Source of the DNA: Selaginella tamariscina
Taxonomy: Eukaryota > Streptophyta > Lycopodiopsida > Selaginellales > Selaginellaceae
Reading direction: 5' to 3'
NCBI GenBank assembly: GCA_003024785.1
Contig: PUQB01000767.1
Location: 38,502-102,501 of the forward strand
DNA: 64,000 nt
The stretch's first letter is position 1. Every line of letters starts with the position of its first letter. Shown piece by piece: positions 9,884 to 45,566 of this stretch. The notes below the pieces were generated by a model, which worked only from the letters and a program-made list of their open reading frames with translations, did not search any database and was not told where the DNA came from. Both the position numbers and the translations under genes were made by a program.

Positions 9884-9909
9884 TGCAAGTTGTAATTAAA
9901 ATGGGCATG
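9884..9909 (+). repeat. Left terminal inverted repeat, copy A
   Basis: Twenty-six bases beginning TGCAAGTTGTAATTAAAATG. One substitution (C to T) from the left terminus of copy B. Sequence homology between the copies starts here (or three bases earlier, at TTA). Confidence 0.75.
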
Positions 9910-10369
9910 TTTATAGTCCCATTTCATAATAATTAGCAATTTTAGCTATTTAATTAGCATTTTCTAATATTAAAAGAATTCCTTAAAATATTCTATTTTG
10001 TAATCGACCCTTTAATAATTATAGCATTCATGGACAAAAAATTAATAACATTATAAAAGTAAAGGTATTAAATATATAATAATATATTTAAGATTGTATG
10101 GAAAATTAAGGAAGAGCATAAGAGGTACATTATATAAATATTGATGTTGTTATTAAAATATTAATATTTAAATATAACATTAATTAAAAATTTGTAAATA
10201 TGTAGTATACAAAATACTATAATAATATAGTCAATCTTCCATATATTTTAAATTTATATAGTTAAGTAAACAATTTGGTACTATTATTAAAGAGTTTATA
10301 ATAATTATGAATATTAAATATATGATATTTTATAATTTTGTAATTGCTTTAAGCTTAGAAAACATACAT

Positions 10370-12950
10370 TCCTTGCAGTTTTATTAATCGTGACTTTATC
10401 AACGCTTCTTACATATCCACCCATATCAAATGGATTTAACATTTATAAAACATGCTGGGTCTTTTTATTGGGAGACCATGTTTTCTCTACACATCCATTA
10501 TATCTTTCGCTCTCCTTCTCATGTTGCCTTTTTTGTGGTTTGAACCATGCAACCTTAACCAACTATTTTTTGTGATTACTTCAGGCGTGTCATAATTTGA
10601 CCATCCAAATAGGCTGATTATATGACATCTGGAGTAATGAGAACCATCATTAGTTTTTGAAGATCTTGCAGTAATCAAAATATGCTTTAGGTTTTTGGTT
10701 CCTTTGTTCAACAAAGTGTGGGGTTTGCACTTCCACATCACTACTGCTTCTATGTCGTATGTGCTCAGTGTGTCATTTCAATCTCTCGCCACCTTGTTTT
10801 AGGCCAAAAAGGGTGTTGCAATTCTGTACTTGTGACAGTAGGCCCTTCTAACTCTCGAACCATAGTCTCCAATAGTCACCACATGCTTATATAGTTCTGA
10901 GTAACCAGTTGCCTTATCAGAATTCTTTGGCATCGATTTTTGAACATGCCACATATTTTTTGATGCCATCAATAATAACCTCTTGTTCCTTGAGCTGGGC
11001 ACTCAATGGAATAGGGTCTGGTTGTCCTTCTGGGAGAAGTGGCTTTCCATCCTCCCACTTTTGAAGAGCATTAAGCCCTCTTTCGGTAACCACTCCTGCT
11101 CTGATGGCCGTAACTTGTACTGCATAATAGTTATACCATCTCGTTATGGAGAAAAAATTGTAGCGGCACAAGGTGACCAACTAAAGAATCACTCCCTTCT
11201 TTTATATACTCCTTGAGAAATTTTTTGAAAGTCTGGCACCTCAGTCACAAGCAAAGCACAACTTTTTTTGGAGATGCAATTTTCAAAAAGATTCATCATA
11301 TGCGGTAAGGTAAGTGCACTTGTCCTTTTTGTAGAGTTGGAGACCTTGCTGAAGAACGCATCAATCTTCATGAGTGTGACCAACCATACTGAGCGTGATT
11401 GTTCAAACACACCTTTGGCAACAAGCATTGACAAGTATGCTAGCACATATCTAGAAAATAAAAGTAAGTATGAGCTTGAGAAACCCTTAAGTAAAATGAT
11501 TTACCTATTTTTGTTCTCGCCTGCACAATTATCCATCTATAAAAGCAAATGACGAGGAAGCTTATTTGATGTTGAGGACACATGTACACTATTTGAGCTA
11601 GATCCCTCCACTGAACTAGAACTCTCACAGGGCCATCTGTTTTTTGTGCAGGCTGCTGACAATGCCTCTCATATTCCCAAGTAGCCTCAAGTGCAGACGT
11701 GTTCATGAGAGCATTATGTAAAGGTTGAAGGTGTTGTTTCTTCACTTTGAGATCATGATAGGACTTGTTGTGAGTGGGCTTCAAGGTTTCTGAAACACAT
11801 GACCAATGACCCAATAGTGAAATTGGAGTCGCTAGACCAATGTGGAAGTGAAAAGTGTCCATATGACTCACAACGTGTCATGTGTTAGCACACCTATCAA
11901 TGAAATCGGAAGTTTCATGACATTTCCAAGGCATTTTGTGTGCAACGAGCTTTGAATGCTGGTCTTTGAATGATCCATCTTGTCATGGATCAAGCACATT
12001 ACTCTGATGGGTGTGACACAGAAAGCATGCGGTACATAGTACTGAGACCGACAAGTTTGTTGTGCAATCATGTGGGCCTCCATCTTTTTGAATGGCAGTG
12101 ATCTCCACCAAGGTTTATGCACCAGGTTTTGGGATCCTGTATATAGTGTACCAAGCTTGAAGCAGATGGCCACCTTATTAAAACCATGGATGTACTTTGA
12201 TAACCTGTGTCCGAGGCCATTCCATCAATACACCCAAATTCATGCCTTTGCTTTTGGGAGCATACGAAAGACATGTCTACATTGAGTAATTTCATTCCGG
12301 TCTGCCATCTAACAACACTTCTTCTTGCAGCAGTCAATCGTGGCAAGTTCATAACACTTTCGAAAGATGTAGGATCCACTTGCCAAAACTTGCAGGGGAA
12401 GATTTGCAACCCATGAATCGCCTTTTTCTTACAATAGGACCAATGCAAAGAACCTCTTCAAATATGGGTTGTTCTTTCGGGTTGTTATTATTGAAATCCA
12501 ACCTAGAATCAACCATCTTGTCGTCTTAATTCAAATGTTTGCCACCTCACGAGGGATCCAGGATGCAATGTGTCATTAGGTGAAACTTCTATCACAACTA
12601 CACTCATGAAGTCGGCCCCTAGTTTCTCTTCTAACAATGCTTCCATTGGATTTATAACTATGATGATGCCTCTCCAACCTCAATCTTCATGAAGAAAGAG
12701 AATCACCTCATCTATCATAGTAGGCAAGCCATCATCTAGTGAACTCATACTACTATTTGTTTGTGACTCTGCATATTCTGTGTCAGCCTTGACTTCATCC
12801 AAATTCCACAATACAGGAGAACCCTCCTCAAATTCCATTTTCGGAACCTCAACATGCTTGCAAATGGTGTTCACCATACGTACACACAAGATCCTTAGGC
12901 AATATTGTGACATGATGCATTAATCTCGAACTTCTACAGTTCCAGTGCCA
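10370..12950 (-). pseudogene. Candidate transposase (DUF7869-like), copy A, broken
   Basis: Reverse-strand frames in several phases match the copy B gene at 23165-26230 piece by piece. Visible pieces are the N-terminal acidic region (12680-12913), a CIDGMASDTGYQSTSMV segment, CLIHDKMDHSKTSI (near 12000), remains of the DNCAGENKNR motif (about 11500-11540, frameshifted) and the C-terminal region down to 10400. The GHTHEDIDAFFSKVS motif is damaged (a gap next to KIDAFFSKVS). Compared with copy B, about 380 bp are deleted between the bases equivalent to 24975 and 25358, which removes the MPHKCRTT segment. Single-base indels occur every few hundred bases. It cannot encode a working protein. Confidence 0.7.
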
Positions 12951-13144
12951 AGTATCTCGTTGTTCCGAAAAAGACATATTTTATCTTCAGTATTAAACAT
13001 ATTGTTCTGCACATAAAAATTGTGTTATTTATGATATGTTTGCAATATTTTTAAGAAATCTTAATTGCGGTGCTTAATAATATGCATGTGCCATAATACA
13101 TAATTATGTATAGGGATAATATCTCATGCTTGATTAATACAACT

Positions 13145-13990
13145 GATGGGCGGGATTAATCCCGCCCACGACTCCCTCCAACGAGGAACGGTCGGCGAGA
13201 TTAATCTCGCGTTGACTCTTCCCCATTGGAGAAAGGTGGCGGGATTAATCCCGCCGCAACTCCCCCAGCGAGGAAGTGTCGGCGGGATTAATCCTACCGC
13301 TGACTCTACCCCTTCGGAGAGAGGCCAACTCTACCTCATCGGAGGGAGTCGGCGGCGAGATTAATCCCACCGCAACTCCCTCCAACGAGGAAGAGGCGGC
13401 GGGATTAATCTCGCTGCAACACCCTTCCACGAGGAAGAGGCGGCGGATTAATCCCGCTGCAACACCCTTCCACGAGGAAGAGTCGGCGGGATTAATCCCG
13501 CCACAATCTCACGACGGGGAATAAGTGACGGGATTAATCCTGCCCACAACTCTCTTTGAAGTTATGATTTCAAAAAGATCTCGAGGGGTGGCGGGATTAA
13601 TCCCGCCGATGCTGTTTTGCATCCGAAACTGATCGGCGGGATAAATCCTGCCCACAAATCTTTAAAACAGGGAAGTGGTGGCGAGATTAATCCCGCCACC
13701 CTTCTCTACCTCCTAAAATGGTTGGCGGGATTAATCCCACCGACAACTCTTTCTAATAAATTCTGGTAACTCTTCATCAGTTTCAAGAGTTATCGGCAGG
13801 ATTAATCCTGCCGCACTTTTTCAGGCGGAGAAGTATTGCCCTGACTAATTCTGTCATGGTTATCAAAGAGATGGTGGCGGAATTAATCCCGCCACCTCTT
13901 CTAAGAGGCGAAAAAGAAATGGCCGGATTAATCTCGCCGCCCCGGCTAACCGAGAATATTAAGTAAGAAGGATGTTTAAACGGGATAAAT
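13145..13990. repeat. Palindrome array 1, copy A
   Basis: About 16 copies of a palindrome with consensus CGGCGGGATTAATCCCGCCG, mostly 42-47 bp apart (starts near 13148, 13195, 13237, 13282, 13351, 13397, 13440, 13485, 13527, 13588, 13635, 13680, 13724, 13795, 13875, 13921). Spacers share a CTCCCTCCRACGAGGAAG-like word. The ATTAAT centre is almost invariant; changes are mostly C to T or G to A in the GC arms. The array lies just upstream of the leftward transposase-like gene. Confidence 0.95.
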
Positions 13991-16520
13991 CCTAACGGAA
14001 TATAATGTAATCCTAATGCATTCCTAAACCCCTAAATTCTAATTTTAAGAGAGAATGTAAGAGAGTGAATCTTTATAAATATTTTTGAATTTGTTTATAA
14101 TACTTACTTGTAAACAGTACTGAAGGCGCCGTGCTTTTTATAAACAATAGCACTCAATTTAATGTTGTTCATGATCTGATCACTATAAAAAAAAAAAAAA
14201 AAGATCTGAAGAGTGAAAAATACAAAAATGAAAAAACCTTTGCCGGAGAAAAAATCAGATCTGAATATGAGTGAGAAATTAAATGCATTTTTAAATTTAT
14301 ATGTCAGACCGACAATACTTATGTCAAAAATTCAAATTTTTTGAAAATAACAGAAAATAAAATTTAAGATGAGTTGACATAAATAATCACACTCTGACAT
14401 ATATACTTTCAAATTCCAATGGGTTATAAAATTACATTTAATGTGATTTAAGTGATTCAAGCTGTTTAATATTACAAAATTTTAATAATTATTCTACATT
14501 CTTAATATTCCAGTATATATTATTAAGTTTATATTATATATATATATACTTATAAATAAATAAATTGATATATTATTATGTATCATTTAAAATATATTCA
14601 TAGTGTGTTTATTAATATTATTTCTTAATTACTCGAGTAATTAATTTACATTTCCTAATATTAATGGGATATTTCTTTATATTTTCTTAATATTAAAAGA
14701 ATATTCCAATATTAAACCTGATTATCATAATTAAATTAGTCTCTATTCTTAATTATTTTAGTAATTATTCTACATTTGTATATATTAATGGGATTTTCTC
14801 AATTAATTTCTTATTATTTTAAGAATATTCCTATGTTAAACCTTATTATCAATATTAAATTAATATATTTATTAAAACTATATATGATTATATATTAAAT
14901 AAAATGATATAATTATGTATAATTTAAAATATGTTCATAGTGTGTATATTAATATCATTTTCTTAATTACTTGAGTAATTAATCTACATTTCTTTATATT
15001 AATGGAATATTCTTTATTATTTTCTTATTATTCCAAGAATATTCCAATATTAAACACGATTATCATAATTAATTTAGTTAATTATTTTAGTACTTGATCT
15101 ACATTTGTATATATTAATGGGATTTCTCAATTAATTTCTTATTATTTCAAGAATATTTCAATGTTAAACCTTATTATCAATATTAAATTAATATATATTA
15201 TTAAAACTATATATGGCTATATATTAGATAAAATGATATATTATTATGTATAATTTAAAATATGTTCATAGTGTGTTTATTAATAATTATTTCTTAATTA
15301 TTCAATGTTTCTTTTGTAGACATATATAAACATAATCTTAAATTTATATATACACGTGCATACACATTAGAAGAGACACATATGCACACAAATGCACAAG
15401 CCAATGAGTGAATCACAATATAAATAAAGCATCTAGATTTGTATTTATAATATAGAGTTTAAAACCAAAACCAAATATTTATAGTTACACACACTCTACA
15501 CTGGGACTTACATATGTTTAGTGTTTAGAGTAAATAATTAGAAAAATGTGCATGCATTTAGTTTATATTAGTATAAAGATTTTATACTAATATATATATT
15601 ATGCACCATATAAAATTTAATAATAAAATACTTATATTAGTTTAAACCCTAAACCAAACTGGAGAGATATGTTGCTTCTTTATTGAAAACATCATGTTCA
15701 ATGCATGTATAATCATATGTACTATATGTAACACATTGAATTTACACATGTAATTGTATGTATGTATGTGTGTATACACATGTATATGTATATATGTGTA
15801 CTAATATATACAATGTGTATGATTTTAATTTATTAACACTCTCTCTCTTCTCATACATACACACCATGCATGATTCATAATATGTAGTCTGTCTCTCTTC
15901 TCTCATATATACACACAATGCATGATTCATAATATGTACTGATGTTACAATATTATGTATTATGTATAAATGTCTGTGTATAATATGTGTATGTATATGT
16001 GTATTAACATATGCAATGTGTACAAAATTAATTTTTAACACTCTCTCTTCTCTCATACATACACACCATGCATGATCTATAATATGTACTGACGTGACAA
16101 TATTATGTACTATGTACGTATGTCTATGTGTATATTATGTGTGTACAATATATTGCTACACGTGAAAATTTAACACTCTCATATATACACATATGTTAAA
16201 CCTTTACATGATTTATATTTTTTGGGTGTATGTGATACACCCACACACGCACACAAATATAAAATTATGATAATAAATGAAAGAATATTCATTTAGGGTC
16301 AATATATATTTTATTCTTTTAGGGTTTAAGTATATTCTTAAAAAGAAATTCAATTAGGGTTAATATATATTTTATTCCTTGGTTTAGGTATATTCTTAGG
16401 GTTTCAAGAAGAAAGGCGGTGGTAGTGGATTAGAGCGGCTGTGCTAGTGGCTGTGCCATAGATGTATAGATTCTCTCTCAGAAGGCGTGATGATGTAAAA
16501 TGGCGCGACGGTGCAGTAGG
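13991..16520. other. AT-rich core, copy A
   Basis: Strongly AT-rich non-coding DNA between the two palindrome arrays. It contains internal duplications of a unit with TTAATTAC, ATTAATGGGATATTCTT and TTCAAGAATATTCCAATATT (about 14560-15300, three to four imperfect copies of about 200-270 bp). Minisatellite-like stretches carrying CATACATACACACCATGCATGAT lie at 15840-16090. No coding frame. Confidence 0.8.
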
Positions 16521-16529
16521 GTTTGAAGG

Positions 16530-16876
16530 TGCATTTAAATAGCTCTCCTCACACGCACACTCCGGTGTATATTTATTTCTATATTTACATATACATTTAT
16601 ATGTGTGTGTATCTTAATAATAAAATTTATTTATCTATCTCTCGCACACACACACACACTCTTGTATATATATATATATGTGTGTGTGTGTGTTTGTATT
16701 ATCTGTATAATTTTTATTTGTTTCGCTCACACACGCATACACACGATATACATATAAATATATATATACCTATATACATATATGCATACATATATTATGT
16801 GTGTGTATCTGTATAATTTTATTGATTTAATAATTTTATCTCTCGCACACACACACACACTCCTACACACATATAC

Positions 16877-16912
<36 letters not shown>

Positions 16913-17157
16913 ATAATTTATTTAAGCACACATGCACACACATGATATACATATCCATATATATATATATATATATACATACATATATAAATAATATATC
17001 TATGTTTGTATCTGTATAATCTTATTGAGTTTTCTATCTCTGGCACACACGCACACTCTCGTATATACATATACATAAATATGTGTTTGTTCATCTCTCT
17101 CACATTCCTGTATATACATATGCATATATATATATTGTGTGTGCGCAGGATTAACGC
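16530..17157. repeat. CA/TG and TA microsatellite block, copy A
   Basis: Alternating (CA)n, (TA)n and (TG)n tracts with recurring TCTCTCGCACACACACACAC and TATATATATATGTGTGTGTG modules, about 150 bp apart. Any frames here are low-complexity artefacts. The block abuts palindrome array 2. Confidence 0.9.
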
Positions 17158-18055
17158 ATGGGTGGCGGGATTAATCTCGCCGCTCTTTGGTTAGCCCCGC
17201 TGGTGGTGGATTAATCCTGCCGCCCTTCACACAAGTCATGAGCGGCGGGATTAATCCCGCCGCCCATGGCCTGCATGGGCCTGCGTTAAGGGCGGCGGGA
17301 TTAATCCTGCTACCCATGGCCTGCATGGAGGTCCTGCATGAAGGGCAGCGGGACTAATCCCTTGTCCATGACCTCCCATGGAGGGCCTACGTGAAGGGCG
17401 ATGGGATTAATCCTGCCGCCCATATATATATGTGTGTGTGCGCATGATTTACGAGAGAGCAGCGAGAGTAATCTCGCCGCACTCCGCACAGCCCATGGCG
17501 GCAGGATTAATCCTGCCGACCCTTCTATGCCTAGTGGCGGGATTAATCCCACCGTCCCTCTAAGGAGGCATGAAAATAGTAGAAGGATTAATTCCCTTCA
17601 CCGGGCATAGAAGGGGTGGAGGGATTAATCCTGCCACCCTTTATGTCTTAATGAGTGTGGGCAAGATTAATCCCACTAACCGCCATTATCCATATGAGAG
17701 TGTCCTGGGCAGGATTAGTCCCGCTCACCAGGCATGGAATTGGTGAGCCAAATCAATCCCGACCACATCTATCTGAGACGAAGAAGGGTTATCGCACACC
17801 AGTTCATGGGACTGAGAAGGGTGGCGAGATTAATTCCACCATCCCTTCCATGGTGGGTGAGATTAATTTCGTCACCCTTCTCTTTCTCTTGAATGAATTT
17901 GCCAAGTAAATCCCGACCAGTTCTCTCTGAGACCGAGAAGGGTGGCGAGATTAATCCCACACAACCATTCAGGGGATCGAGAAGGGTGCCAAGATTAATC
18001 CCGCCCACCCTTTCAGGAGGCATAGAAGGGGTGGCGAGATTAATCTCGCCCCACC
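17158..18055. repeat. Palindrome array 2, copy A
   Basis: Degenerate copies of the same palindrome (for example 17164, 17206, 17244, 17292, 17503, 17537, 17822, 17942, 18030). The outer bases are heavily altered (GGCGAGATTAATCTCGCC, GGCAGGATTAATCCTGCC). Spacers contain CCCATGGCCTGCATGG- or GAGACCGAGAAGGG-like words. It lies just upstream of the rightward ParB-like gene. Confidence 0.9.
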
Positions 18056-18166
18056 TTCCATGTGAATATATATGTGTATTAGTATATATAAGTTGCATAT
18101 TTCATTTTATTTACTTTTATTAGCTTATCATAATATTTTGAGTAAAAGCCAGTAAACTATGTGAAA

Positions 18167-18248
18167 CTATCCAAAGCTCACATTTATGGTGGTTTTAAAA
18201 CAAATGTTATCAGTCTTTTGCACTATCATAAACATGAGCTTTGTACAG
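18167..18248 (+). promoter_or_regulatory. Inverted-repeat hairpin upstream of ParB-like gene, copy A
   Basis: Arms 18167-18188 and 18227-18248 (centre GCTCACATTTATG / CATAAACATGAGC) match at 18 of 22 positions around a 38-nt loop. Position and sequence correspond to the better preserved hairpin in copy B. Role unknown. Confidence 0.5.
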
Positions 18249-18420
18249 TTAATCCCATCCACTTCTCTCTGAGACAAAGAGGGTATATGTGAATTTATCT
18301 ATGTAATATTTGTATATTCGGGTTTATACAAGTGTGTGTGCGTTTTTATATGATTTGTATTCATAATGTATTATTGTGCAGAAGGACAATTTGATCAAAC
18401 AAGGAGATTGAGTCATTAGT

Positions 18421-21400
18421 ATGGAGTCGTCATTAAATTCTGGGTAAGAATTATAATAAAATCTGTTATACTCGAATATGTGCTTGAAAAACTAATCATT
18501 TTTGTATTCAGATGTAGAATTAAGGTGACATTAAAGACGAGAGGAGGAGAAGAGATGGGCAGGGGATTCTGGAATCAACTTGGCCATATTTCAAAATAAA
18601 CGGGAAGCACATTGGAGCAAGCATAGTTGCTGTCAAACTAACCTCTGTCACATCGCGTGGACAAGCAAAACAATGGAAAGTAGATTTACTAGTCAAGCAC
18701 CCGAAAGCAGTCTGCAACCCAAATTGGACAATGCTTGACATGTATGCCTTGTTCCATTTAATGTCACGTTCTCAGATTCAGAAGTTGCCAGTTACGACAT
18801 TAATCTCGAGTGGTTTTGTCAACTTGTGGATAATGATGTTCATGTGTTCACTAATGATATTGACCATGGAGTTCTTCTTCAACTCAATGAAAGCCCATTT
18901 ATGGAGGGGATCCAGTTAGATGTCTACTTCGAAGATCTCCATACTCATTGAGTAGGTGTATTCTCAGCAGATATTGCTTCACAATACAGAATATCCAGAA
19001 GTGGAGCAATCGTCCCTCTTCTTATTGAAGAAGAATAGCGACATCATTAGGGAGATTGAGAGGGTGGCTTGGTCCCAGGTTCTTTACAAATCACGTTCAA
19101 TTTACTTAGGAATCTTTGGGAGTTAGAAGAGTGTACCGAGACCATTAGAATAGCTGCAGTTGGGGATCACACATGTTGATTTGGATCGTAGAAGAAAATC
19201 ATATGTCGTTTTGTTAGCTGCACTGTGGCATCTCATGTTGTAATAAGCCACAAGGAAATGATGTTGGATGATAGGATTTATGAGTGTAGGGTTAAGTATT
19301 GCAACGTCAACCCAAACTTCAATTACATGCCACTCAACCAGGAACGTGTAGTGAGCTCATGAAGAAGATGAAGGACGACAATTCTTACACCGTTCCACAT
19401 AATGTTGTTTTGTGCCCATACTATGAAAGAAAGAAAGGCGCTAATAAAGTGTGGATCACAACACTAGACCAAATCACAAAGATTCAGATGAAGAATAAAA
19501 AATCAATCAAGTACTACATCATTAGTGGCCAGCACACAATAACGGCAGCCCAACAACTTCTCGATGAACACAACAAAGGAACGATGGCAACAAAACTTTT
19601 GAGCATACCCGTGAGAAGCTACAAAAAGATCGGCGTTTTTAGCTAAGCCGAATCTCACAATTGAGCAGTACCATAAGTTATTGGCAGAATGGGACGCTAC
19701 CGACACCAACCACTACAACAGCAAAATATAGGAGAAGTTCAAACACATGCGAGCTGTGTGGGAAACTCTTCAGCGACCACAAAGAGCTATTGCAGGGAAA
19801 GAACAATGTTCAAACTACCGGGTAAGTAAATTGTCTTGGGCGGGATTTATCTCGCCAATATTAATCTGTCTCTTTTTTTCAGAGAGTTAAAGAAATTGCA
19901 GCAGTTGATTTTGCCCAGTGAGCGGGAAGAAAACATCCTTTTTGATGATGTTGATTTCTTCAAGGATAAGATCTTTGCCAAATGGTTGGGATTATGGAAT
20001 CTTTGCAAAAGGAACACTGAAGAAGAAGCAGACAAGTGAAGGGGAGCCCTCAGAGAAGTCTGCAAAGAAACCCAGTAAGACGCGAAGGCTAAGTCTGTTC
20101 AATCTACAAAGGATGTAAAACGATTTCAAGCTCACATGGTTGAAGCCTTTAAATGGAACAACGATGGAGGAGATGGAAGTCTTGGCTTGATTTGGTGATT
20201 GATGGCAAACTACAGATTAACAACAGCAGCCCCACCTCTTTTTCATCTCAAGGCAATGGAGTTGAAGACGGTCAGGCACTTCAAGGAGTGGTTGGGAATA
20301 CACTGCCACAAATGGGTTGGACTCGGCTTCAACATACGAAGAGGTCAATAAATATTTGCATGTGACAAACGATGATATGCTTGTCCAATGGGTGAATCAA
20401 TCGAAAGATCTGGGCAAGAATCTATTGCACGCCAACGCCAAAAAGGAGAACATTGCGATGACGCCTTCTTTTATGGCAGTCCTTCAGCAGCGGAGAACCG
20501 AGTTGAACCTTATAAAGGAGGATGCTACGAATCACGACAAGCCCTACAGATGTTTGTTGTCAGATTCGGAAGACTTTATGGGGTAACATCACTGCTTGTA
20601 GGAAACCGTTTCAATTGTTCGTGATGGATCGGCGGGTGTCAAAAAATCCTTTGACAGATAGGGCACTAGAGGATTTGGTGGAGAAACTTAGCCGTGCAAG
20701 CATGTACAAAAAGGTATTTATTATTGAATTCATGTTTACACTCTTCACTAATACCTACGTTTTGAGGTATTTATTTCTTCATTTTGGTTCATGTCACAGA
20801 CACTTTTGCCTTCGTCTTCGCCAAGAAGAATAGACATCGTTGGACAGGATTTTATATGAACAATGTTGATCCCAAATGCATTGATACGGTTGTTTACTTG
20901 GTTGTTAGGAATGCGCAAAACAATTTCAAACTTCCAAATGACTGACCAGGCATCTGTTTACACTCCAACGAGCTTGAACCTTCATCTGATACACCGATAG
21001 CTGAGAGGGACGTATTCGGCAATGTACGTTATCCAAACATCACAAGTCAAGCTGCACGGAGCATCGTCAACTTGATCAGGGTCCTCACAATGATGCATGG
21101 GTTTTTGACTATTGCACTAGGGGGTTTGTCTTGAAGGAGTGTTACCTTTGGGATACATGTGTGTTTGCCGTTGAAAAGGATAAGACCATGATTAAGGGAC
21201 CTGAACAAGTGGATAGAGAGGTTCTCAACTGACTACCCTAACAAATCCATACATGAGTATTTGAAAAAGTTCCTTCCTGAGAAGTGCGATAGCTTTGAAG
21301 AGGAATTTGGTTCAATGTCGGAGTCTAAGGACGATCTTCAATTAGATATTAGACCAAAAGTTATCTCAACGAGTACAGAACATTCAGATACTCCATTACC

Positions 21401-22660: not shown

Positions 22661-22666
22661 CCTTTA

Positions 22667-26100: not shown

Positions 26101-26230
26101 AATTCCATTCCAGAACCTCAACATGCTTGAAAATGGTGTTCACCCATACGTACACACAAGATCCTTGGGCAATATTGTGACATGATGCATTATTCATCTC
26201 GAACTTCCACAGTTCCAGTGCCAACTATCT
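23165..26230 (-). pseudogene. Candidate transposase (DUF7869-like), copy B, broken
   Basis: Read right to left: an acidic N-terminal region (about 25920-26110); a cysteine cluster DCCKKKCCQMADRN followed by a GIPKTTFYRR helix and HGNTAWSKP (25257-25715); ADRMPHKCRTT (about 25220); CLIHDKMDHSKTSIPK (about 24820); LQMDNCAGENKNR (24345-24385); an apparent short intron near 24290-24345; MVGHTHEDIDAFFSKVS (about 24185-24225); and a basic C-terminal domain. From memory these motifs match the eukaryotic DUF7869 family, often seen in mobile or expanded genes. The acidic residues in DKMD, DNCxxEN and HTHED look like a DDE/RNase H-type active site, which is inference. Frameshifts between blocks make it a pseudogene. 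It is transcribed away from the adjacent palindrome array. Confidence 0.65.
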
Positions 26231-26424
26231 CGTTGTTCCGAAGAAGACTACTTTATCTCCAGTTATATACATATTATCCTGCACATAAATAATTGTGTTA
26301 TTTATGATATCTGTTTATGCAATATTTCTAAGAAATCATAACTGCGGTTGCTTAATAATATGCATGTGCAATAATACATAATTATGTATATAAATAATAT
26401 CTCATGCTTTATTAATATAACTGA

Positions 26425-27240
26425 TGGGCGGGATTAATCCCACGCAGATCTACCCCTTCGAAGTGAGTCGGCGGGATTAATCCCGCCGTCACTCTACCCC
26501 ATCGAGAGAGTCGGCAGGATTAATCCCGCCGCCGATACTTCCTCGTCGAAGGAGCGGCGGGATTAATCCCGCCACGGGCTCCCTCCGACGAGGAAGTAGC
26601 GCGGGATTAATCCGTCGCGGGCTCCCTCCGACGAGGAAGTAGCGGCGGGATTAATCCCGCCGGGCTCCCTCCGACGAGGAAGTACCGGGGGATTAATCCC
26701 GCCACCGGATCTTCCTCGTCTGTGAGAGTTGGCGGATTAATCCCGCCGCAAATTCCTCGACGAGGAAGAGGGGCGGGATTAATCCCGCCACAAACTAACG
26801 ACGGAGAATAGGCGGCGGGATTAATCCCGCCCACAACTCTGACGACGGGGAATAAGCGACGGGATTAATCCCGCCCACAACTCTCTCCGACTATGATTTT
26901 AAAGAGATTCGGAATGAATCCTGCCCACAAATATTTAAAACAGGGAAGTACTTCTCTGCCTCCTAAAATGGTTGGCGAGATTAATCCCGCGACAACTCTT
27001 TTAATAAATTCAAGTAAATCTTATCAGTTGAGAGAGTTATCGGCGGGATTAATCTCGCCGCTCTTTTTAAAGGCGAGAAGCATTGCCCGAACTAATTCTG
27101 ATATAGCTATGAAAGAAATGGTGGCAGGATTAATCCCGCCACCTCTTCAAAGAGGCGAAAAAAAATGGCCGGATTAATCCCGCCGCCCCGGCTAACCGAG
27201 AATATTAAGTTAAAAGTATATTTAAACGGGATAAATCCCT
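26425..27240. repeat. Palindrome array 1, copy B
   Basis: About 16 copies of CGGCGGGATTAATCCCGCCG at intervals close to 43 bp (for example 26427, 26469, 26512, 26556, 26600, 26643, 26685, 26731, 26772, 26814, 26858), then wider spacing to 27228. Perfect copies are commoner than in copy A. Spacers carry CTCCCTCCGACGAGGAAG, itself GC-rich and regular. Same position relative to the leftward gene as in copy A. Confidence 0.95.
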
Positions 27241-29740
27241 AACAGAATATATTGTAATCCTAATGCATTCCTAAATCCCTAAATTCTAAAATTTAAGAGA
27301 GAATGTAAGAGAGTGAATCTTTATAAATATATTTAAATTTGTTTATAATACTTACTTGTAAACAGCACTGAAGGCGCCGTGCTTTCCTATAAACAATAAC
27401 GCACCCAATTTAATGTCGCTCCTGAGCTGATCACTAAGAAAAAAAAGAAAATCTGAAGAATGAAAATAAAGAATGAAGAAACCCTTGCCGGAGAAAGAAC
27501 CAGATCTGAATTTGAGTGGGAAATTAAATGCATTTTCAAATTTACATGTCAGACTGACAATACTTATGTCAGAAATTCGAAATTTTTGAAAAACAACAGA
27601 AAATAAAATTTAAGATGAGTTGAAACAAATAACGATAGTCTGACATATATACTCTCCAATTCAATGAGTGTTTTAAAATTGCATTTAATGTTATTCAAGT
27701 GCTTCAAGCTGTTTAATATTACGAAATTTTTGTAATTGTTTACATTCTTAATATTCAAGTATATATTATTGAGTTTATATTATATATATATATACACTAA
27801 TACAATAAATAAATTGATATATTATTATGTATCATTTAAAATATATTCATAGTCTGTTTATTATTATTATTTTCTTAATTACTCGAGTAATTAATTTACA
27901 TTTCCTACTATTAATGGGATATTCTTTATTATTTTCTTAATATTGAAAGAATATTCCAATATTAAACCTGATTATCATAATTAAATTAGTCTTATTCTTA
28001 ATTATCTCAGTAATTATTCTACATTTGTATATATTAATGGGATTTTCTCAATAATTAATTTGTTATTATTTCAAGAATATTCTAGTGTTAAACCTTATTA
28101 TCAATATTAAATTAATATATATTATTAAAACTATATATGACTATATATTAGATAAAATGATTATTATTATGTATAATTTAAAATATGTTCATAGTGTGTA
28201 TATTAATTTCATTTTCTTAATTATTTGAGTAATTAATCTTCTTTATATTAATGCGATATTCTTTATTATTTTCTTATTATTTCAAGAATATTTCAATATT
28301 AAACATGATTATCATAATTAAATTAGTTAATTATTTCAGTACTTGATCTACATTTGTATATATTAATGGGATTTTCTCAATTAATTTCTTATTATTTCAA
28401 GAATATTCTAATGTTAAACCTTATTATCAGTATTAAATTAATATATATTATTAAAATTATATATGGCTATATATTAGATAAAATCATATATTATTATGTA
28501 TAATTTAAAATATGTTCATAGTGTGTATATTAATATTATTTTCTTAATTATTCGATGTTTGTTTTGCACATATTATATATAAACACGATCATAAATTTAT
28601 ATATACACGTGCACACGCATTAGAAGTACTTACAAAGACACATATGCACACACATGCACATTGCCCTAAACCAAACTTGAGAAATTATATGTTGCTTCTT
28701 TATTGAAAAACATTATGTTCAACGCATGTATGATCTATATGTACTCAGTCTGTGTGTATGTAACACATTGAATTTACACATGTAATATATATGTATGTCT
28801 GTGTGTATACACATGTGTATGTATATATGTATTAATATATGCAATGTGTACGATTTTCATTTGTTAACACTCTATCTCTTCTCTCATACATACACAGTGT
28901 CACCATGCATAATCCCTTCTCTCTCTCATACATACACACCATGCATGATCCATAATATGTATTGATGTTACAATATTATGTAATATGTATAATGTATATC
29001 TATGTATAACACTCATTCCTCTCATACATAAATATTATGCATGATCCATCATAACCCTAAACCCTAAACCCTAAACCCTATGTTAACACATTGAATTTAC
29101 ACATGTAATATGTATGTATGTCTGTGTGTATACACGTGTGTATGTATATGTGTGTACTAATATATGCAATGTGTATGAATTTAATTTGTTAACACTCTTT
29201 CTCTTCTCTCATACATACACACCATGCATGATCCATATAAATATGTACTGTCTCTCTTCTCTCAAACATACACACCATGCATGATCCATATAAATATGTA
29301 CTGTCTCTCTTCTCTCATACATACACACCATGCATGATCCATATATGTATTGTCACTCTTCTCTCATACATACACACTATACATGATCCTATACTCTGTC
29401 TCTCTAATATTAATATGTACTAATATGTATGTATGTCTATGTGTATAATACTATGTGTGTATATATGTATCGTTGCACGTGAAATTAACACTCTCATGGA
29501 CACACACGTGTTAAACCCCTGCATGATATTTATTCTTGGGGTGTATGTGATACACCCACGCACACGCACACGCTGATAATATAATGAAAGAATATTCGTT
29601 TAGGGCGAATCTATAGTTTATTCTTTTAGGGTTTAAGTATATTCTTAAAAGGAATATTTGATTAGGTTAATATATATTCTATTCCTTTTAGGGTTTAAGT
29701 ATATTCCTAGGGTTTGTAAGGTGCGGCGGCGGCGGTGAAA
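27241..29740. other. AT-rich core, copy B
   Basis: Counterpart of 13991-16520, with the same imperfect duplications of an ATTAATGGGATATTCTTTAT-bearing unit (about 27840-28550). The minisatellite of CATACATACACACCATGCATGATCCATA units (28870-29400) is expanded relative to copy A. Non-coding. Confidence 0.8.
29053..29080. repeat. Interstitial plant telomere repeat, about four units
   Basis: Four consecutive CCCTAAA-type units. It sits at the junction of a local duplication: the GTTAACACATTGAATTTACA-type sequence at about 28750 reappears immediately after it. No telomere run was seen at the matching place in copy A. Confidence 0.85.
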
Positions 29741-30000
29741 TCTCCTTTTCTCTCTCACACAGGTGAGATCTCTCTCTCTCTCACACGCACACTCCTCTGG
29801 GTTTATTTATTTATTTTATTCACATATATATTTATATGTGTGTGTATCTTAATAAATATAATTTAGATCTCTATCTCTCGCACACACACGCACACTCGTA
29901 TACATATACACACACAGATATATATAATATATATCTCCTTCTCTCTCTCTCTCTTCTCTATAGATCTCTATCTCTCGCACACACACGCACACTCCTATAC

Positions 30001-30040
<40 letters not shown>

Positions 30041-30405
30041 TGTGTGTATCTGTATAATTTTATTGATTTGTTAATTGTATCTCTCGCACACACACGCGCA
30101 CTACTGTATATATATATGTGTGTGTGTGTTTGTTTATTTGTATGACTTTATTTGCTTCACACACGCATACACATGATATACATATACACACATATATATA
30201 TATACCTATGTACATATATACATACATATATTATGTGTACCAGTATCTGTATAATTTTATTTATTTATCTATCTCTCGCACACACACGCACACTCCTGTA
30301 TATACATATACATATACATATATATGTGTGTGTGTGTATTTGTATAATTTTATTTGATTTGTCTACCTCTGGCACACACACGCACTCTCCTACACACACA
30401 TATAC

Positions 30406-30443
<38 letters not shown>

Positions 30444-30447
30444 TGTA
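29741..30447. repeat. CA/TG and TA microsatellite block, copy B
   Basis: Same modular arrangement as 16530-17157, with (CT)n, (CA)n, (TA)n and (TG)n tracts and repeats of ATCTCTCGCACACACACGCA. It ends in a TG tract directly joined to palindrome array 2. Confidence 0.9.
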
Positions 30448-31645
30448 GCGGCGGGATTAATCCCGCCGCTATTATGGTGAGACGTGTGTAGCGACGGGAT
30501 TAATCCCGCCGCTATATGGTGAGACGTGTGTAGCGACGGGATTAACCCGCCGCATATGGTGAGACGTGTGTAGCGACGGGATTAATCCCGCTGCTATATG
30601 GTTAGCCCCTCGGCAGCGGGATTAATCCCGCTGCCATTTCAGGCAGGTTATTCGGTTAGCCAAATGAGTGGCGAGATTAATCCCGCCGCCTACGCATGCC
30701 TGCGCGGAATCGGGCGGGATTTATCCCGCCGCCATTGGCCTACCTAAGGGCCTAGGCAGGGGATTAATCCCGCCGATTCCGCATAGGCATTGGCGTCCGG
30801 CGGGATTAATCCCGCGCTACGCATGCCCTGTGCGAATCGGGCGGGATTTATCCCGCCGCCAAAGGCCTGCCTGAAGGGCCTAGGCGGCGGGATTAATCCC
30901 GCGGATTCCGCACAGGGCATTGGCGTGGCGGGATTAATCCCGCCGCTACGCATGCCCTGCGCGGAATCGGGCGGGATTTATCCCGCCGCCAGGCCTGCCT
31001 GAAGGGCCTAGGCGGCGGGATTAATCCCGCCGATTCGCACAGGGCATTGGTTCCGGGGATTAATCCCGCCGCTAAGGCCCGAGTGAAGGGCCTGGGCGCG
31101 GATTAATCCCGCGCTACGCATGCCCTGCGCGAATCGGGCGGGATTATCCCGCCGCCAAAGGCCTGCCTGAAGGGCCTAGGCGGCGGGATTAATCCCGCCC
31201 GATTCGCGAGGGAATTGGCGTCCGGCGGGATTAATCCCGCCGCAAGGGCCCTGGCGGGATTAATCCCGCCGAGCCTTCAATGCCTGTTGGAGGAATGAAT
31301 CCCGCCACCCTTCCTTTTTTCTCCATTGGTGAGTCGGACCAATCCCAAACGTTTCTGTCTGAGACGTAGAAGGTTTACAACATACCAATGGAGAGACTGG
31401 GAAGGGTGGGAAATTCATTTAACCATCCCTTACATGGTGGGCGAGATTAATCCCGCCTCCTTTCTGGAGTCACTGAAGGGGTGTGCAAATAAATCCTGCC
31501 AGTTCTCTCTGAGACCGAGAAGGGTGGCAAGATTAATTCCGCACTCCCGTTCAAGGCCTCCAGAAAGGTGGCGAGATTAATCCCGCCCACTCTTTCAGGA
31601 GGCATTGAAGGGGTGGCGAGATTAATCCCGCCGCACCTTCCATGT
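30448..31645. repeat. Palindrome array 2, copy B, with higher-order units
   Basis: About 20-24 palindromes, many perfect (GGCGGGATTAATCCCGCC), some with TTTAT in place of TTAAT at the centre. Intervals are near 42 bp. Between 30690 and 31230 they are organised in a higher-order unit of about 127 bp marked by CTACGCATGCCCTG (near 30690, 30816, 30944, 31114). In it the spacer GCATGCCCTGYGCGGAAT is answered by its reverse complement ATTCCGCACAGGGCAT. From 31250 on the copies decay as in copy A. Confidence 0.95.
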
Positions 31646-31749
31646 GAATATATATGTGTATTAGTATATATAAGTTGCATATCTCATTTTATTTACTTTT
31701 ATCATCTTATCATAATATTTCGAGTAAAAGCTAGGAATCTATGTAAAAC

Positions 31750-31830
31750 TGTCCAGAGCTCACATTTGTGGTGGTTCTAAAACGAAATGTTATCTTTCTT
31801 TTGCACTAGCACAAATGTGAGCTTTGGACA
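31750..31830 (+). promoter_or_regulatory. Inverted-repeat hairpin upstream of ParB-like gene, copy B
   Basis: Left arm TGTCCAGAGCTCACATTTGT (31750-31770) and right arm 31810-31830 pair at 20 of 21 positions. The remaining pair would be a G-U wobble in RNA. The loop is 39 nt. One pair differs compensatingly from copy A (G-C here, A-T there). It lies about 145 bp before the proposed start codon, between array 2 and the gene. It may be a 5'-leader RNA hairpin or a protein-binding inverted repeat. Confidence 0.6.
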
Positions 31831-31974
31831 GTTAATTCCGTCACTTCTCTCTGTGTATTATTTTTGTATATTCGGGTTTATACAAGTGTGTGTGCGTTTT
31901 TATATGATTTGTATTCATAGTGTATTATTTTGCAGAAGGACGATTTAATTAAACAAGGAGATCGAGTCATTAGT

Positions 31975-34900
31975 ATGGAGTCGTCGTCAAATTCTGGGTA
32001 AGAATTAAAATAAAATCTGTTATACTCGGATACTTGAACTAATCATTTTTGTATTCAGATGTGGAATTGAGGTGACATTAAAGACGAGAGCAGGAGAAGA
32101 GATGGGCAGGGGGATTCTGGAATCAACTTGGCCATATTTCAAACTAAACGGGAAGCGCATTGGAACAACCATGGTTGCTGTCAAACTAACCTCTGTCACA
32201 TCGCATGGACAAGCAAAACAATGGAAAGTGGGTGTGCTAGTCAAGCATCCGAAAGCATGCTGAACCCAGATTGACGATGCTCGACACATATGCCTTGTTC
32301 CATCCAATGTCACGTTCTCGGATCCAGAGGTCGCCAGTTACAACATTAATTTCGGGTGGTTTTGTCGACTTGTGGATAATGACGTTCACGTGTTCACTAA
32401 TGATGTTGACCTTGGAGTTCTTCTTCAACTCAACGAAAGCCCATCTATGGAGGGGATCCACTGGATGTCTACTTCGAAGATCTTCAGACTCATCGAGTAG
32501 GTGTATTGTCAGGAGATATTGCTTCACAATACAGAAAATCACAAGTGGAGCAATCGTCCCTCTTCACATTGAAGAAGAACACAGCGACATCATAAGGAGA
32601 TTGAGAGGGTGGCTTGGTCTCAGGTTCTTTACAGATCACGTTCAATTTGCTTAGCAAATTTCGGGAGCTGGAAGAGTGTGCCGAGAACATTAGAACAGCA
32701 TCAATCGGGGATCACACATGTTGATTCGGATCGTAGAAGAAAATCTAGTCGTTTTGTCAGCTGCACCTGTGGCGTCCCATGCTGCAATAAGCCACAAGGA
32801 AATGATGTTGGATGATAGGATTTACGAGTGTAGGGTTAAGTATTGCAGCGTCAACCCAAACTTCAATTACAGGCCACTCAATCAGGAACGTGTAGCTGAG
32901 CTCATGGAGAAGATGAAGGACGACAATTCTTACACCGTTCCACATAATGCTGTTTTGTGTGCATACTACGAGAGAAACAAAGGCGCTGACAAAGTGGATC
33001 ACAACACCGGAACAAATGAGGAAGGTTCAGACGGAGAATAGAAAATCATCAAGTACTACATCATTAGTGGCCAGCACACAATAACGGCAGCCCAACGACT
33101 TCTCGACGAACACAACAAAGGAACGATGGCAACAAAACTTTCCGAGCATACCCGTGAGAAGCTGACGAAAAGATCGGCGTTTTTAGCGAAGCCGAATCTC
33201 ACAATCGAGCAGTACCATAAGTTATCGGCGGAATGGGACGCTGCAGACACCAACCACTACAACAGCAAAATATGGGAGAAGTTCAAACACACGCGAGCCG
33301 TGTGGGAATCTCTTCAGCGACCACAAAGAGCTACCGCAGGGAATACACAATCTGCGGACTACCGGGTAAGCAAATTGTTTGGGCGGGATTTATCTCGCCG
33401 GTATATTAATCTGTTTTTTTCTCAGAGAGTTGAAGAAATTGTAGCAGTTGATTTTGCCCAGGTGGGCGGGAAGGAAACATCCTTTTTGATGATGTTGATT
33501 TCTTGTCCCGAGGATAGGATCTTTGCAAATGGTTGGGGATTATGGAATCCTTTGCAAAAGGAACACTGAAGAAGAAGCAGACAAGTGAAGTGGAGCCCTC
33601 AGAGAAGTCTGCAAAGAAACCCAGTAAGACGCCGAAGGCTAAGTCTGTTCAATCTATAAAGGATGTAGACAACGATTTCAAGCTCACATGGTTGAAGCCT
33701 TTAAATGGAACAACGATGGAGGAGATGGAAGTCTTGGCTGATTTGGTGATTGATGGCAAATTACAGATTAACAACAGCAGCCCACCTCTCCTTTTCATCT
33801 CAAGGCAATGGAGTTGAAGACGGTCAGGCACTTCAAGGAGTGGTTGGGAATACACTGCCACAAACTGGGTTGGATTTCGGCTTCAACATACGAAGAGGTC
33901 AGCAAATATTTTGTGACGATGATATGCTTGTCGAATGGGTGAATCAATCGGAAGATCTGGGCAAGAATCTATTGCACGCCAACGCCAAAAAGGAGAACAT
34001 TGCGATGACGCCTTCTCTTATGGCAGTCCTTCAGCAGCGGAGAACCGAGTTGAACCTTATAAAGGAGGATGCTACGAATCACGACAAGCCCTACAGATGT
34101 TTGTTGTTGGATTCGGAGACTTTATGGGGTACCATCACTGCTTGTAGGAAACCGTTTCAATTGTTCGTGATGGATCGGCGGGTGTCAAAAAATCCTTCGA
34201 CAGACAGGACACTAGAGGATTTGGTGGAGAAACTTAGCCGTGCAAGCATGTAAAGAAGGTATTTATTATTGAATTCATACTTGCACTCTTGACTGATATC
34301 TATTTTCAGGTATTTATTTCTTGATTCTTGCTCATGTCACCGATACCTTTGCCTTCGCCTTTGCCAAGAGGAATAAACATCGTTGGACAGGATTTTATAT
34401 GAATGATGCTGATCCGAAGTGCATTGATTCGGTTGTTCACTTGGTTGTTAGGAATGCGCCAAACATTTCAAACTTCCAAATGACTGGCCAGGCATCTGTT
34501 TGCACTCCAACGGCCCTGAACCTCCATCCGATACACCGATAGTGAGAGTGACGTATTCGGCAATGTACGTTATCCAAACATCACAAGTCAAGCGGCACGG
34601 AGCATCGTCAACTTGATCAGGGGTCCTCACAGTGATGCGTGGGTTTTTGACTACTGCACTAGGGGGTCCGTCTTGAAGGAGTGTTACCTTCGGCATACAT
34701 GTGTGTTTGCCGTTGAAAAGGATAAGACCATGGTTGAGGACCTGAACAAGTGGATAGATAGGTTCTCAACTGATACCCCAACGAATCCATAAGGAGTATT
34801 TGAGAAAGTTCCCTCCGATAAGTGCGATAGCTCTGAAGACGAATCTGGTTCAATGTCGGAGTCTGAGACGAACTTCAATCAGATATTAGACCGGAAGTTA

Positions 34901-35050
34901 TCTCGAGGAGTACAGAACATTGCACACTCCATTACCCATGGAAACATCAATAGAAGATGCAGAAGATCTTGAACCATCTCACAAGCGGCTTAGACCTTCT
35001 TCGCCTCACTCAGAAGGTAATAGCGAAGAAGAATTGTTAATGATTTAGAG
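31975..35050 (+). pseudogene. ParB-like / methyltransferase-like gene, copy B, broken
   Basis: Proposed start ATG at 31975; intron 1 is 31998-32058. Domains in order: an unassigned N-terminal region (GCGIEVTLKTRAGEE...); a ParB/Srx-like block at about 32850-33130, with RPLNQERVAELMEKMKDDNS and then YYIISGQHTITAAQRLL, which resembles the ParB N-terminal GxxR region; a helical basic region; intron 33366-33425; a linker with lysine/serine repeats (33580-33660); and a C-terminal block at 34560-34795 with WVFDYCTRGSVLKEC and VFAVEKD. The last block looks like motif I and strand 2 of a Rossmann methyltransferase. An acidic tail follows. Single-base indels and stops (near 33030, 33569, 34790) break it. 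ParB and methyltransferase identities are motif-level inferences. No DPPY-type motif IV was found. Confidence 0.55.
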
Positions 35051-35592
35051 TGACGAATAGTTGTAAATGAGTGTAACATAAGGCATTTTTGTATATTTCG
35101 TTTATATTTGTACAGAAAATAAATTCTCAAGGATTAATGAAGCTTTTAGTTCAAACATGGGTCACACATTAACAAGGTAAATAATATACCTTGATAATTT
35201 TAAGGTCAGCTAATTATCATTTTGCAGATGTAATGAAACAATTGAGAACATGGATTTTCAGCATTGGCATGAGGTAAGAGAGGGGTTTGGCGACAATTTC
35301 TTGTGCCACATGTCAGAATGACAGAGTTCATGCAGGAAATGGATAATAATGCAGCTCAAAACATCGTTACCATGGGGGCCACTTCATTTTTCATCATCAT
35401 TTTTATTGGCTTCAGTTCCGAAATCAATTTCTTCAGCGCATGCAATATCTGAATCTTGTAAGGATGATGTACAATTAAATGATGAAGGGATAGGCAACGA
35501 GATAGTGCAACGGATAAATGTGAAAGGGAGCAAACAAGTGATTTGCAAAGTATTCAAGAGGCAACGCTATCCATGTTACTCATGGCCATATT

Positions 35593-36288
35593 GTGTTGTT
35601 GGATGTCAATGGTGTTCTGCTTCATCGACAAAGGCCCGAGGATAGGAAAAAAGAAATCAAACAAGGAGATTTCATTCCTTGTCATGGTAAATTTCGATAT
35701 GATATTATTTTTCGTCCAGGGTTGGATCGTCTCTTTCAAAAGCTTAAGGAGATGGGTGCGCTTGTGGGGATTTGGTCATGCATGCAGATTCATAACTTAA
35801 CACCGCTGTTGAATTTGCTTAAGAAACATTGTAGTGTTGCAGAAGAGGTGATTCGTAAAGATTGGATTTTTGACCAGCGAATATGTTATAAACCTCTCGA
35901 ATTTCACAATATAAGAAAGGAAAGCAAGCCATACTTCTTCAAGAATGAAAGAATAATTGGGACTCATGGGGAGATCAGTCGCTTAAGGATAATGAATGCA
36001 CAGATGTTAGTAGTAGACGACTCTCCTCAGAAGGCTATGCTCAACCAAAACATTGCTTGTATTCATCCAATCACTTTCGATCCATATTCTGATACCGATA
36101 TCATGGATGAGCTAGTGAACTACTTGGATACGTGCCTCAGAAAGAAGAATCTCGAAAATTTTTGTGAGCAGTATCCACCGTATCATACATTTCCTGAAGC
36201 TTTTCTTTCTCGTGATTTTGAATTTTATAAAATGAAGGATAGCAACCGGGCGCTTTATAATATTATTCTTAAGGAACGTCATTTTTAG
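35593..36288 (+). CDS. FCP1/NIF-like HAD phosphatase domain protein, copy B
   Basis: A 231-codon open frame with the order of an FCP1/small-CTD-phosphatase (NLI-interacting factor) domain: strand 1 LLDVNGVLLHR (residues 2-12); RPGLDRLFQKL (41-51); GALVGIWSCM (55-64, the motif II position); DWIFDQRICYKPL (90-102); MLVVDDSPQKAMLNQN (138-153, the DD motif); CIHPITFDPYSDTD (156-169); and NYLDTCLRKK. Active family members use DxDx(T/V); here it is DVNG, with the second Asp replaced by Asn, a variant I recall in some plant homologues. Catalysis is therefore doubtful. The frame opens at a TTG and continues upstream without a clear ATG, so an N-terminal exon (35230-35590) is likely. It is the only long intact frame in the element, and probably cargo. 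Confidence 0.75.
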   Translation: MLLDVNGVLLHRQRPEDRKKEIKQGDFIPCHGKFRYDIIFRPGLDRLFQKLKEMGALVGIWSCMQIHNLTPLLNLLKKHCSVAEEVIRKDWIFDQRICYKPLEFHNIRKESKPYFFKNERIIGTHGEISRLRIMNAQMLVVDDSPQKAMLNQNIACIHPITFDPYSDTDIMDELVNYLDTCLRKKNLENFCEQYPPYHTFPEAFLSRDFEFYKMKDSNRALYNIILKERHF

Positions 36289-36743
36289 ATGAGCCTTTAT
36301 GCAGACCTTCTTATTACATCTTATGTATTAACAAGGATGGCAACTCCCAATTGCATTCGTGAGAGTGTTAGTGGTGGCAACAACATCAAGATATTGACCA
36401 AAATGATTTGATTAATCCGGAGAGTGATGATTTAGACAAAATGAGGAGATTTCTCTGTATGATAGGAAGAAAGTATTTATAAAAAATTAACATGTTGATA
36501 AGAAAATGATTTCATTTGTAATTATGTTTGATAGTATTTCTTCATTATTGTAAACTATTTTTAGAATAATATGAATATTCTAAGATATTTTAGGAATATT
36601 CCTTACTAAGTAAGGTTATTGAAGGATTAATTAATTAATTAATTAATATTTAAGGCTTAATTACATATTAATTAAATGATTAATTAATAATTAAAACTTA
36701 AGTATTAATTAGTAATTTATTTTATATTCCCATTTTCACGTAT

Positions 36744-36770
36744 CATGCCCACTTTAGTTACAACGTTGCA
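36744..36770 (-). repeat. Right terminal inverted repeat, copy B
   Basis: Reads CATGCCCACTTTAGTTACAA then CGTTGCA. The reverse complement matches the left terminus except for one extra C and one A/G difference. Inboard lies an AT-rich stretch of ATTAATTAATTA-type sequence (36600-36730), similar in composition to the left subterminal region. Confidence 0.8.
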
Positions 36771-45540: not shown

Positions 45541-45566
45541 AGGAGGGTCCTCGTGCAAATAAATTA

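Follow-up and report, generated by a model that had tools for sequence, protein, structure and literature searches.

A high-copy 14-15 kb DNA transposon family with a putative DUF7869 transposase and internal palindrome arrays in Selaginella tamariscina

Does a 64,000-nucleotide stretch of the Selaginella tamariscina genome (GenBank assembly GCA_003024785.1, contig PUQB01000767.1, positions 38,502 to 102,501 of the forward strand; hereafter the window, whose coordinates are used throughout) hold two tandem copies of a large, undescribed DNA transposon, as an original prediction made from the letters alone proposed, and how would such an element work? Our data show that one of the two copies, element B, is complete. 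It occupies 22666..36771 on the plus strand (14,106 bp, including a terminal A and a terminal T), and other copies are contiguously homologous to it up to both of its ends and no further. The left terminal inverted repeat (TIR) of B, ATGCAAGTTGTAACTAAAATGGGCATG (22666..22692, plus strand), and its right TIR, a variant form reading ATGCAACGTTGTAACTAAAGTGGGCATG (36744..36771, minus strand), pair along 27-28 positions, interrupted by a single gap and a single mismatch, and the matching termini initially described for B are thereby borne out. The other copy, element A (9883..22661, plus strand), is older, has the same gene order as B, and lacks its right end. The family carries a putative transposase gene, two arrays of an 18-bp palindrome, and two further genes, here called genes 2 and 3. 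In our view it is highly probable that the family is of high copy number and was recently active, that its members are cut-and-paste transposons of the autonomous type, 14-15 kb in length, which move by the mechanism proposed below, and that B is one of the full-length members.

The evidence for a family comes from the ends of the element, which read ATGCAA...TGCAT and were searched for in the 300.7 Mb assembly (1,391 contigs). The exact left-end 20-mer, the core of the left TIR, has 1,151 genome matches (610 and 541 on the two strands), and the common right end, TGCACGTTG..., which was first met in loci L037-L038, has 1,110 exact matches (558 and 552), compared with 0 for the reversed control of each. 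Relative to this common form, the right end of B carries an extra base, and this B-type end has 8 exact genome matches. Within the window, the left-end 20-mer is found at 9884 (1 mismatch) and at 22667 (exact), with a chance expectation of 0.01. The family numbers about 1,100 copies per genome. Thus, a giant autonomous-type transposon, which was originally held to be a rarity at this size, is abundant here. Full-length copies of ~14 kb, 1,100 in number, would make up ~5% of the genome, but the sample of left ends described below (14/22) shows that not all copies are full length.

We also analyzed where homology to B starts and stops. In all 8 left-end loci, taken from the top of the genome match listing, homology begins at the first base of B; 7 of them carry the transposase side over ~1.5 kb, and the remaining locus is rearranged. 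The 8 loci with a B-type right end (B itself included) all begin at its last base, and contiguous homology therefore ends at the element termini in 16/16 loci, with B counted. Homology running past the termini, which the original prediction had named as the observation that would speak against a discrete element, was thus looked for, and the homology was found to stop on both sides. In locus L009, which holds copy C77, separate matches of 72-81% to the repetitive middle of the element lie outside the right end, a possible sign that this insertion went into an existing copy.

Left and right ends occur at distances that fit one element. Of the 96 left ends listed, 56 face a right end on their own contig; the distance is below 20 kb for 38 of these and 13.6-15.1 kb for 31, whereas a wrong-side control gave 7 within 20 kb, 3 of these at 13-16 kb (4 left ends and 1 right end listed beyond C202 were dropped). 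Three other complete copies measure 13,813, 14,550, and 15,046 bp, compared with 14,104 bp for B (terminal A and T not counted). In fetched windows, a right end lay near the expected distance for 14 of 22 left ends (8/12 and 6/10; C5, at a contig end, was left out of the sample). As for the left ends that were missed, C1_324k belongs to a copy shortened to 11.85 kb by an internal deletion, with both ends kept, C36_427k is faced by an exact right end at 18.1 kb, and C25_206k retains 150 bases of the right part. Two local arrangements were also observed. The left ends C191:284264 and C191:284547 (L033) lie 283 bp apart in the same orientation, each with ~283 bp of element, and the left ends C80:105768 and C80:121378 have at least 30 bases of left flank in common, this second pair being probably one insertion that was duplicated along with its neighbourhood.

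Insertion sites were compared for 17 insertions, without C1_2087k (terminus lost) and C3_367k (which runs into N). An exact 4-bp target duplication is present in 10 of the 17, compared with 1 of 272 mismatched flank pairs. Since TGCA is preceded by A in 17/17 insertions and trailed by T in 17/17, these two bases were counted as the first and last base of the element itself. The duplication of B is CTTT, with its left copy at 22662..22665, within the sequence of A, and its right copy at 36772..36775; it flanks ATGCAAG...CGTTGCAT, and the span of B is therefore 22666-36771. A target duplication of constant length had been expected at 5-6 bp; constancy stands, while the length has to be revised to 4 bp, as duplications of 5 bp and 6 bp were found in at most 3/17 and 1/17 insertions, respectively. 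A 3-bp duplication is exact in 1/17 insertions (control, 7/272), and no exact duplication of 7-9 bp was found among the 17. Some of the misses resemble shifts by a single base, as assembly insertions or deletions (indels) would cause; all were scored as misses.

How, then, did A and B come to lie side by side? A (9881-22660) is colinear with B (22664-36293) in four large blocks of 85-93% identity, the middle of the alignment being repeat-rich and more diverged (70-89%). The shared order and orientation reported at the outset are thus real, whereas the idea of two complete tandem elements does not hold. The homology of A to B ends where the uninterrupted sequence of B reads GCCTTTATGCAGACC, which indicates that B entered A just after gene 3. 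The pair is better read as a nested insertion in which B would have landed in the 3' part of the older A, whose last ~470 bp are missing. These ~470 bp were not found in the 3.2 kb downstream of B, and the right end of A is lost or replaced. At the junction after B (36771-36783), the sequence fits the expected tail of A only as CTTTATG (the duplication plus three bases) and continues with the 9-base ATGGCAACT, which also occurs in the tail of B; this junction may be a scar left when A lost its end, or else be due to chance.

A tandem or segmental duplication of one locus would likewise place A and B in the same orientation and order, and the C80 pair suggests that such events have occurred elsewhere. 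Yet a self-comparison of the window (>150 bits, low-complexity filter on) revealed no match that extends the A-B homology past the element ends at the A-B spacing, to the left or to the right, which answers the check for common outer flanks that the original prediction had called for. In addition, B has its own 4-bp duplication, its nearest relatives sit at other loci, and it differs from A by 7.3% substitutions, while its last 3.5 kb differ from copy C1325 by 0.17%. We regard duplication of one locus as highly improbable and retain the nested insertion. A, with in-frame stops in its genes, is a real relic, an older, right-truncated copy. It holds transposase remains at 10352..13000 on the minus strand (10352-11449, 11504-12125, 12128-13000), a decayed palindrome array 1 at 13153..13808 (9 GGATTAATCC sites), a decayed array 2 at 17208..17631 (7 sites), and, on the plus strand, remains of gene 2 (18810..21242) and of gene 3 (21892..22651), shortly beyond which B starts.

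The candidate transposase of B is encoded on the minus strand by two exons separated by an intron of ~54 bp with GT-AG ends. Exon 1 (24345..26272) comprises DUF7869 with the acidic motifs IHDKMDH and QMDNCAGENKN, and exon 2 (23170..24290) contributes a third motif, VGHTHEDID, and the C-terminal part. Scanned in pieces, this gene has DUF7869 (PF25273) as its sole Pfam match above the cut-off (4.1e-26). A search of 5.8 billion proteins with the transposase read-through returned 108 relatives; the ten best are environmental sequences with 35-43% identity, and the named ones include Riccia, Mytilus, Saccostrea, Tubulanus, Branchiostoma, corals, and echinoderms. Among 64 aligned relatives, and counting those in which the position is present, D530 and D671 (P0010 numbering throughout) are each found in 63/63, D711 and D713 each in 61/61, and E710 in 57/61; D671 and E710 are most commonly separated by 38 residues. 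The order and spacing of these motifs fit a DDD/E (Asp-Asp-Asp/Glu) transposase with an RNase H fold, and on that basis the DUF7869 protein is most likely a DDD transposase with a predicted RNase H fold. The proposal that the element is of the autonomous TIR type, with a transposase candidate of its own, is supported. Exon 1 has a ratio of nonsynonymous to synonymous substitution rates (dN/dS, by simple site count throughout) of 0.14-0.31 relative to five young copies.

A sequence search of the PDB with the transposase profile gave a single match, Origin recognition complex subunit 1, with E = 1.6, and a search of viral contigs for the DUF7869 protein gave none. No database name of a relative and no paper in the literature searched calls a DUF7869 protein a transposase; DUF7869, PF25273, and pieces of the element end and of the palindrome were not found in that literature, Repbase lying outside the search. 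The DUF7869 proteins of a liverwort, molluscs, corals, echinoderms, and amphioxus have the domain and the acidic motifs as in the protein of the element. What sets the present case apart from them is mobility, which is known here from the anatomy of the element alone, so that a widespread domain gains a mobile-element context consisting of ends, target duplication, copy number, and catalytic motif.

Exon 1 of B shows 9 frameshifts relative to copy C1355, in which the same exon is open over 660 codons. Together with the stops in A, the many frameshifts of B could mean that A and B are both dead pseudo-elements. For B, this is an unlikely account of the data, as the indels themselves show. Over the last 3.5 kb of B, a comparison with C1325 revealed 22 small indels and 6 substitutions in 3,488 bp, and between C687 and C113a we counted 23 small indels and 26 substitutions; moreover, the codons of B that were compared with other copies contain no stops. 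Decay would not give young copies so many small indels, and the frameshifts of B look largely like uncorrected assembly indels. In the youngest copies, small indels are about equal to or above substitutions in number, and reading frames of this assembly need care.

The nearest relative of B also changes along its length. The left 1.45 kb of B is nearest to C77 among the 12 copies compared (5 differences in 1,441), and gene 2 of B differs from the C687 type with a synonymous rate (dS) of 0.10-0.12, while the last 3.5 kb of B is nearly identical to C1325. This pattern points to likely exchange of sequence between subfamilies.

Gene 2 lies on the plus strand at 32354..34789 (blocks 32354-33414, 33421-34247, and 34333-34789), possibly with an extra N-terminal exon from about 32030, and has no recognisable family. 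For gene2_c, dN/dS is 0.13, 0.10, and 0.12 relative to B, C564, and C1325, and for gene2_b it is 0.26, 0.28, and 0.30 relative to B, C564, and C113b; relative to near-identical copies, the gene 2 values range over 0-1.66 on a handful of changes. Judged from these ratios, gene 2 is conserved as a protein between subfamilies and is clearly under purifying selection. The labels ParB and methyltransferase, first attached to this gene, were a likeness by eye and were abandoned. Pfam, PHROGs, and NCBIfam contain no ParB or methyltransferase family that matches it, only unrelated sub-threshold matches (E at least 0.035); PDB sequences (searched with the ParB-like part only) and two protein-database searches gave no matches, and tblastn of gene 2 against phages gave one chance match (E = 4).

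Gene 3 (35507..36285, plus strand) encodes a NIF/FCP1-like HAD protein. The NIF domain (PF03031) is above the cut-off (5.8e-12; 46-47.5 bits compared with a cut-off of 21.8), in agreement with the phosphatase gene predicted from the letters. The catalytic motif of NIF/FCP1-like HAD proteins is DxDx(T/V). In gene 3, motif I reads DVNG, with the usual second Asp replaced by Asn, and the departure from DxDx(T/V) is common to B, C1355, C1325, and C113a, all of which read DVNGV. Gene 3 shares the HAD fold of FCP1/NIF-type phosphatases (PF03031) by profile and differs from them in the second Asp of DxD, and phosphatase activity of its product appears doubtful. Its dN/dS is 0.31 relative to A and 0.50 relative to C113b, and 0.24-0.99 on few changes relative to young copies; a PDB search with gene 3 gave chance-level matches only. 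Across the Pfam scans of the main frames of the element, some frames being unscanned, only DUF7869 and NIF were above the cut-off.

Full copies contain two arrays of the 18-bp palindrome GGCGGGATTAATCCCGCC, which lie upstream of the transposase gene and of gene 2, respectively. In B, array 1 (26431..27180) has 13 GGATTAATCC sites directly upstream of the transposase gene, and array 2 (30454..31266) has 14 sites upstream of gene 2, with weaker copies to ~31627. All 43 GGATTAATCC of the window fall within A and B, and the two arrays per copy that had been recognised at the outset are present in both. Genome-wide, GGCGGGATTAATCCCGCC has 27,128 exact copies (reversed control, 0). Among the first 100 listed, all from contig C1, 99 are clustered, and six cluster pairs on C1 are spaced 3.1-3.8 kb apart, matching the distance between the arrays of the element. 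We aligned 210 sites from 7 copies. Conservation is 83-96% at the five outermost bases of either side and fades within ~12 bases of the centre; the spacers vary, and neighbouring sites most often lie 45 bp apart. In aligned arrays, substitutions amount to 4.5% in palindromes compared with 11.5% in spacers (ten non-independent comparisons).

Copy number and spacing within the arrays differ among copies, expansion and contraction being evident, and C1_324k lost array 2 through its internal deletion and kept both ends. Such features would suit functionless, unstable satellite-like repeats, an account that we hold to be improbable: the 18-bp dyad is conserved and the spacers are not, and the positions of the two arrays agree among all seven copies in which both regions are present (the middle of C617 is longer). 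Most likely, the palindromes serve as binding sites for a dimeric protein through which both gene blocks are controlled.

Taking these parts together, we postulate that the element is cut out by the putative DUF7869 transposase, which would bind its 27-bp ends and insert it at AT-rich 4-bp targets, and that a dimeric DNA-binding protein (the gene 2 product or a host factor) acts at the palindromes to control both gene blocks. Gene 3, with its NIF/HAD fold, would be an accessory gene. In En/Spm elements, an element-encoded protein binds repeated short motifs that have a further role in regulation, and the proposed control would resemble the action of En/Spm proteins on repeat arrays. A bolder proposal, to which we give a rather low probability, is that DUF7869 defines its own DDD transposon superfamily of plants and animals, that the palindrome control centre was acquired in this plant-like lineage, and that the family serves as a protein decoy. 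Here, the gene 2 product or a host cell-cycle factor such as E2F/DP would bind ~25-40 palindromes per copy in ~45-bp steps and so switch both divergent gene blocks together; the half-site GGCGGGA resembles E2F sites. If the palindromes are indeed bound, the 27,128 exact sites would make the family a large decoy for the binding protein. The arrays raise the question of what protein recognises these 27,000 identical palindromes and whether this couples transposition to the host.

To which known kind does the element belong? The Sola superfamily was reportedly defined by Bao et al. in 2009, and its transposases are said to be of the DDD type; three invariant acidic motifs were observed here. The 4-bp AT-rich duplication, short TIRs, and large transposase suggest that the element works like a Sola element, and Sola is probably the closest known kind. 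Sola2 of dictyostelids has short TIRs, AT-rich 4-bp target duplications, and a large transposase of 888 aa, and Polysphondylium Sola2 elements that agree almost completely in their 5' parts differ entirely in their 3' parts (PMC3627910); "Physcomitrella Sola1" is entered in a review table (PMC9033089). The features in common with these elements are the 4-bp AT-rich duplication (here in 10/17 insertions compared with 1/272, an eighteenth, C7, being unmatched), short TIRs, a large transposase, and large chimeric members. The Sola passages of PMC3627910 mention neither palindrome arrays nor a NIF gene, and the ends described here are 27-28 bp long and begin with ATGCAA.

The element may be a plant member of this known superfamily, enlarged by accessory genes and arrays and new in anatomy only. 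We give this possibility about even chances. It draws on the dictyostelid Sola2 anatomy and the Physcomitrella Sola1 listing (PMC3627910, PMC9033089) and on the 4-bp duplications, 27-bp TIRs, and DDD pattern found here; against it, DUF7869 is absent from the literature searched.

CACTA, hAT, Mutator, and PIF-Harbinger disagree with the duplication or the domain found here. With CACTA/En-Spm, the element shares large size in a plant and repeated short motifs. It differs in having ATGCAA termini in place of CACTA/G ends, a duplication of 4 bp and not 3, and a DUF7869 transposase; arrays are subterminal in CACTA/En-Spm and internal and gene-proximal here. A Tnp2-type domain was likewise not seen, only DUF7869 being above the cut-off in the transposase gene, and one relative, P0002, has a sub-threshold TNP1/EN/SPM match (19.9 bits compared with a cut-off of 21). 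Mutator and hAT were rejected on their 8-9 bp duplications and PIF-Harbinger on its 3-bp duplication, given the insertion-site counts above. As to a KDZ transposase, or the DNA polymerase B and integrase genes of Maverick-Polinton elements, DUF7869 and NIF were the only Pfam matches above the cut-off in the main frames that were scanned. Collectively, the element is a giant DNA transposon, abundant and recently active, and its most original parts are the transposase context of DUF7869 and the palindrome arrays.

Several observations weigh against B being a full-length, autonomous-type transposon with the mechanism set out above. DUF7869 is a domain of unknown function, and exon 1 has a dN/dS of 0.76 relative to the decayed A. 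In addition, gene2_d has a dN/dS of 0.75 relative to C113b, values of 0.73-1.66 arise in comparisons with very few changes, and the dN/dS of gene 3 rests on more than 10 changes only relative to A and C113b. Complete right ends are missing at the expected distance for 8 of the 22 sampled left ends. An exact 4-bp duplication is missing in 7 of the 17 insertions and in the eighteenth, C7, which was fetched after the count; C14_498k shows a gapped resemblance of 8-9 bases, AAAAGGTAG / AAAAGTAG, instead. As for the palindromes, their inner eight bases were fixed by the selection of sites, and their conservation could be partly due to homogenisation within arrays. Finally, the insertion of B alone does not account for the missing right end of A.

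Other repeats are found around the two elements, and an Rfam scan of the window at gathering scores gave no matches. The outer flanks share repeats at spacings other than that of A and B (3843-4784 with 44962-45924, 77%). An inverted pair of ~970 bp, 86% identical and 55 kb apart (6019-6983 / 61805-62720), encloses both elements and probably represents copies of another repeat. Remains of a retroelement with reverse transcriptase and aspartyl protease, probably of the Ty3/gypsy type, lie at 45501-47925, and a tandem repeat with a period of 109 bp occupies 50843-51188 in three copies that are 82-84% identical to the first.

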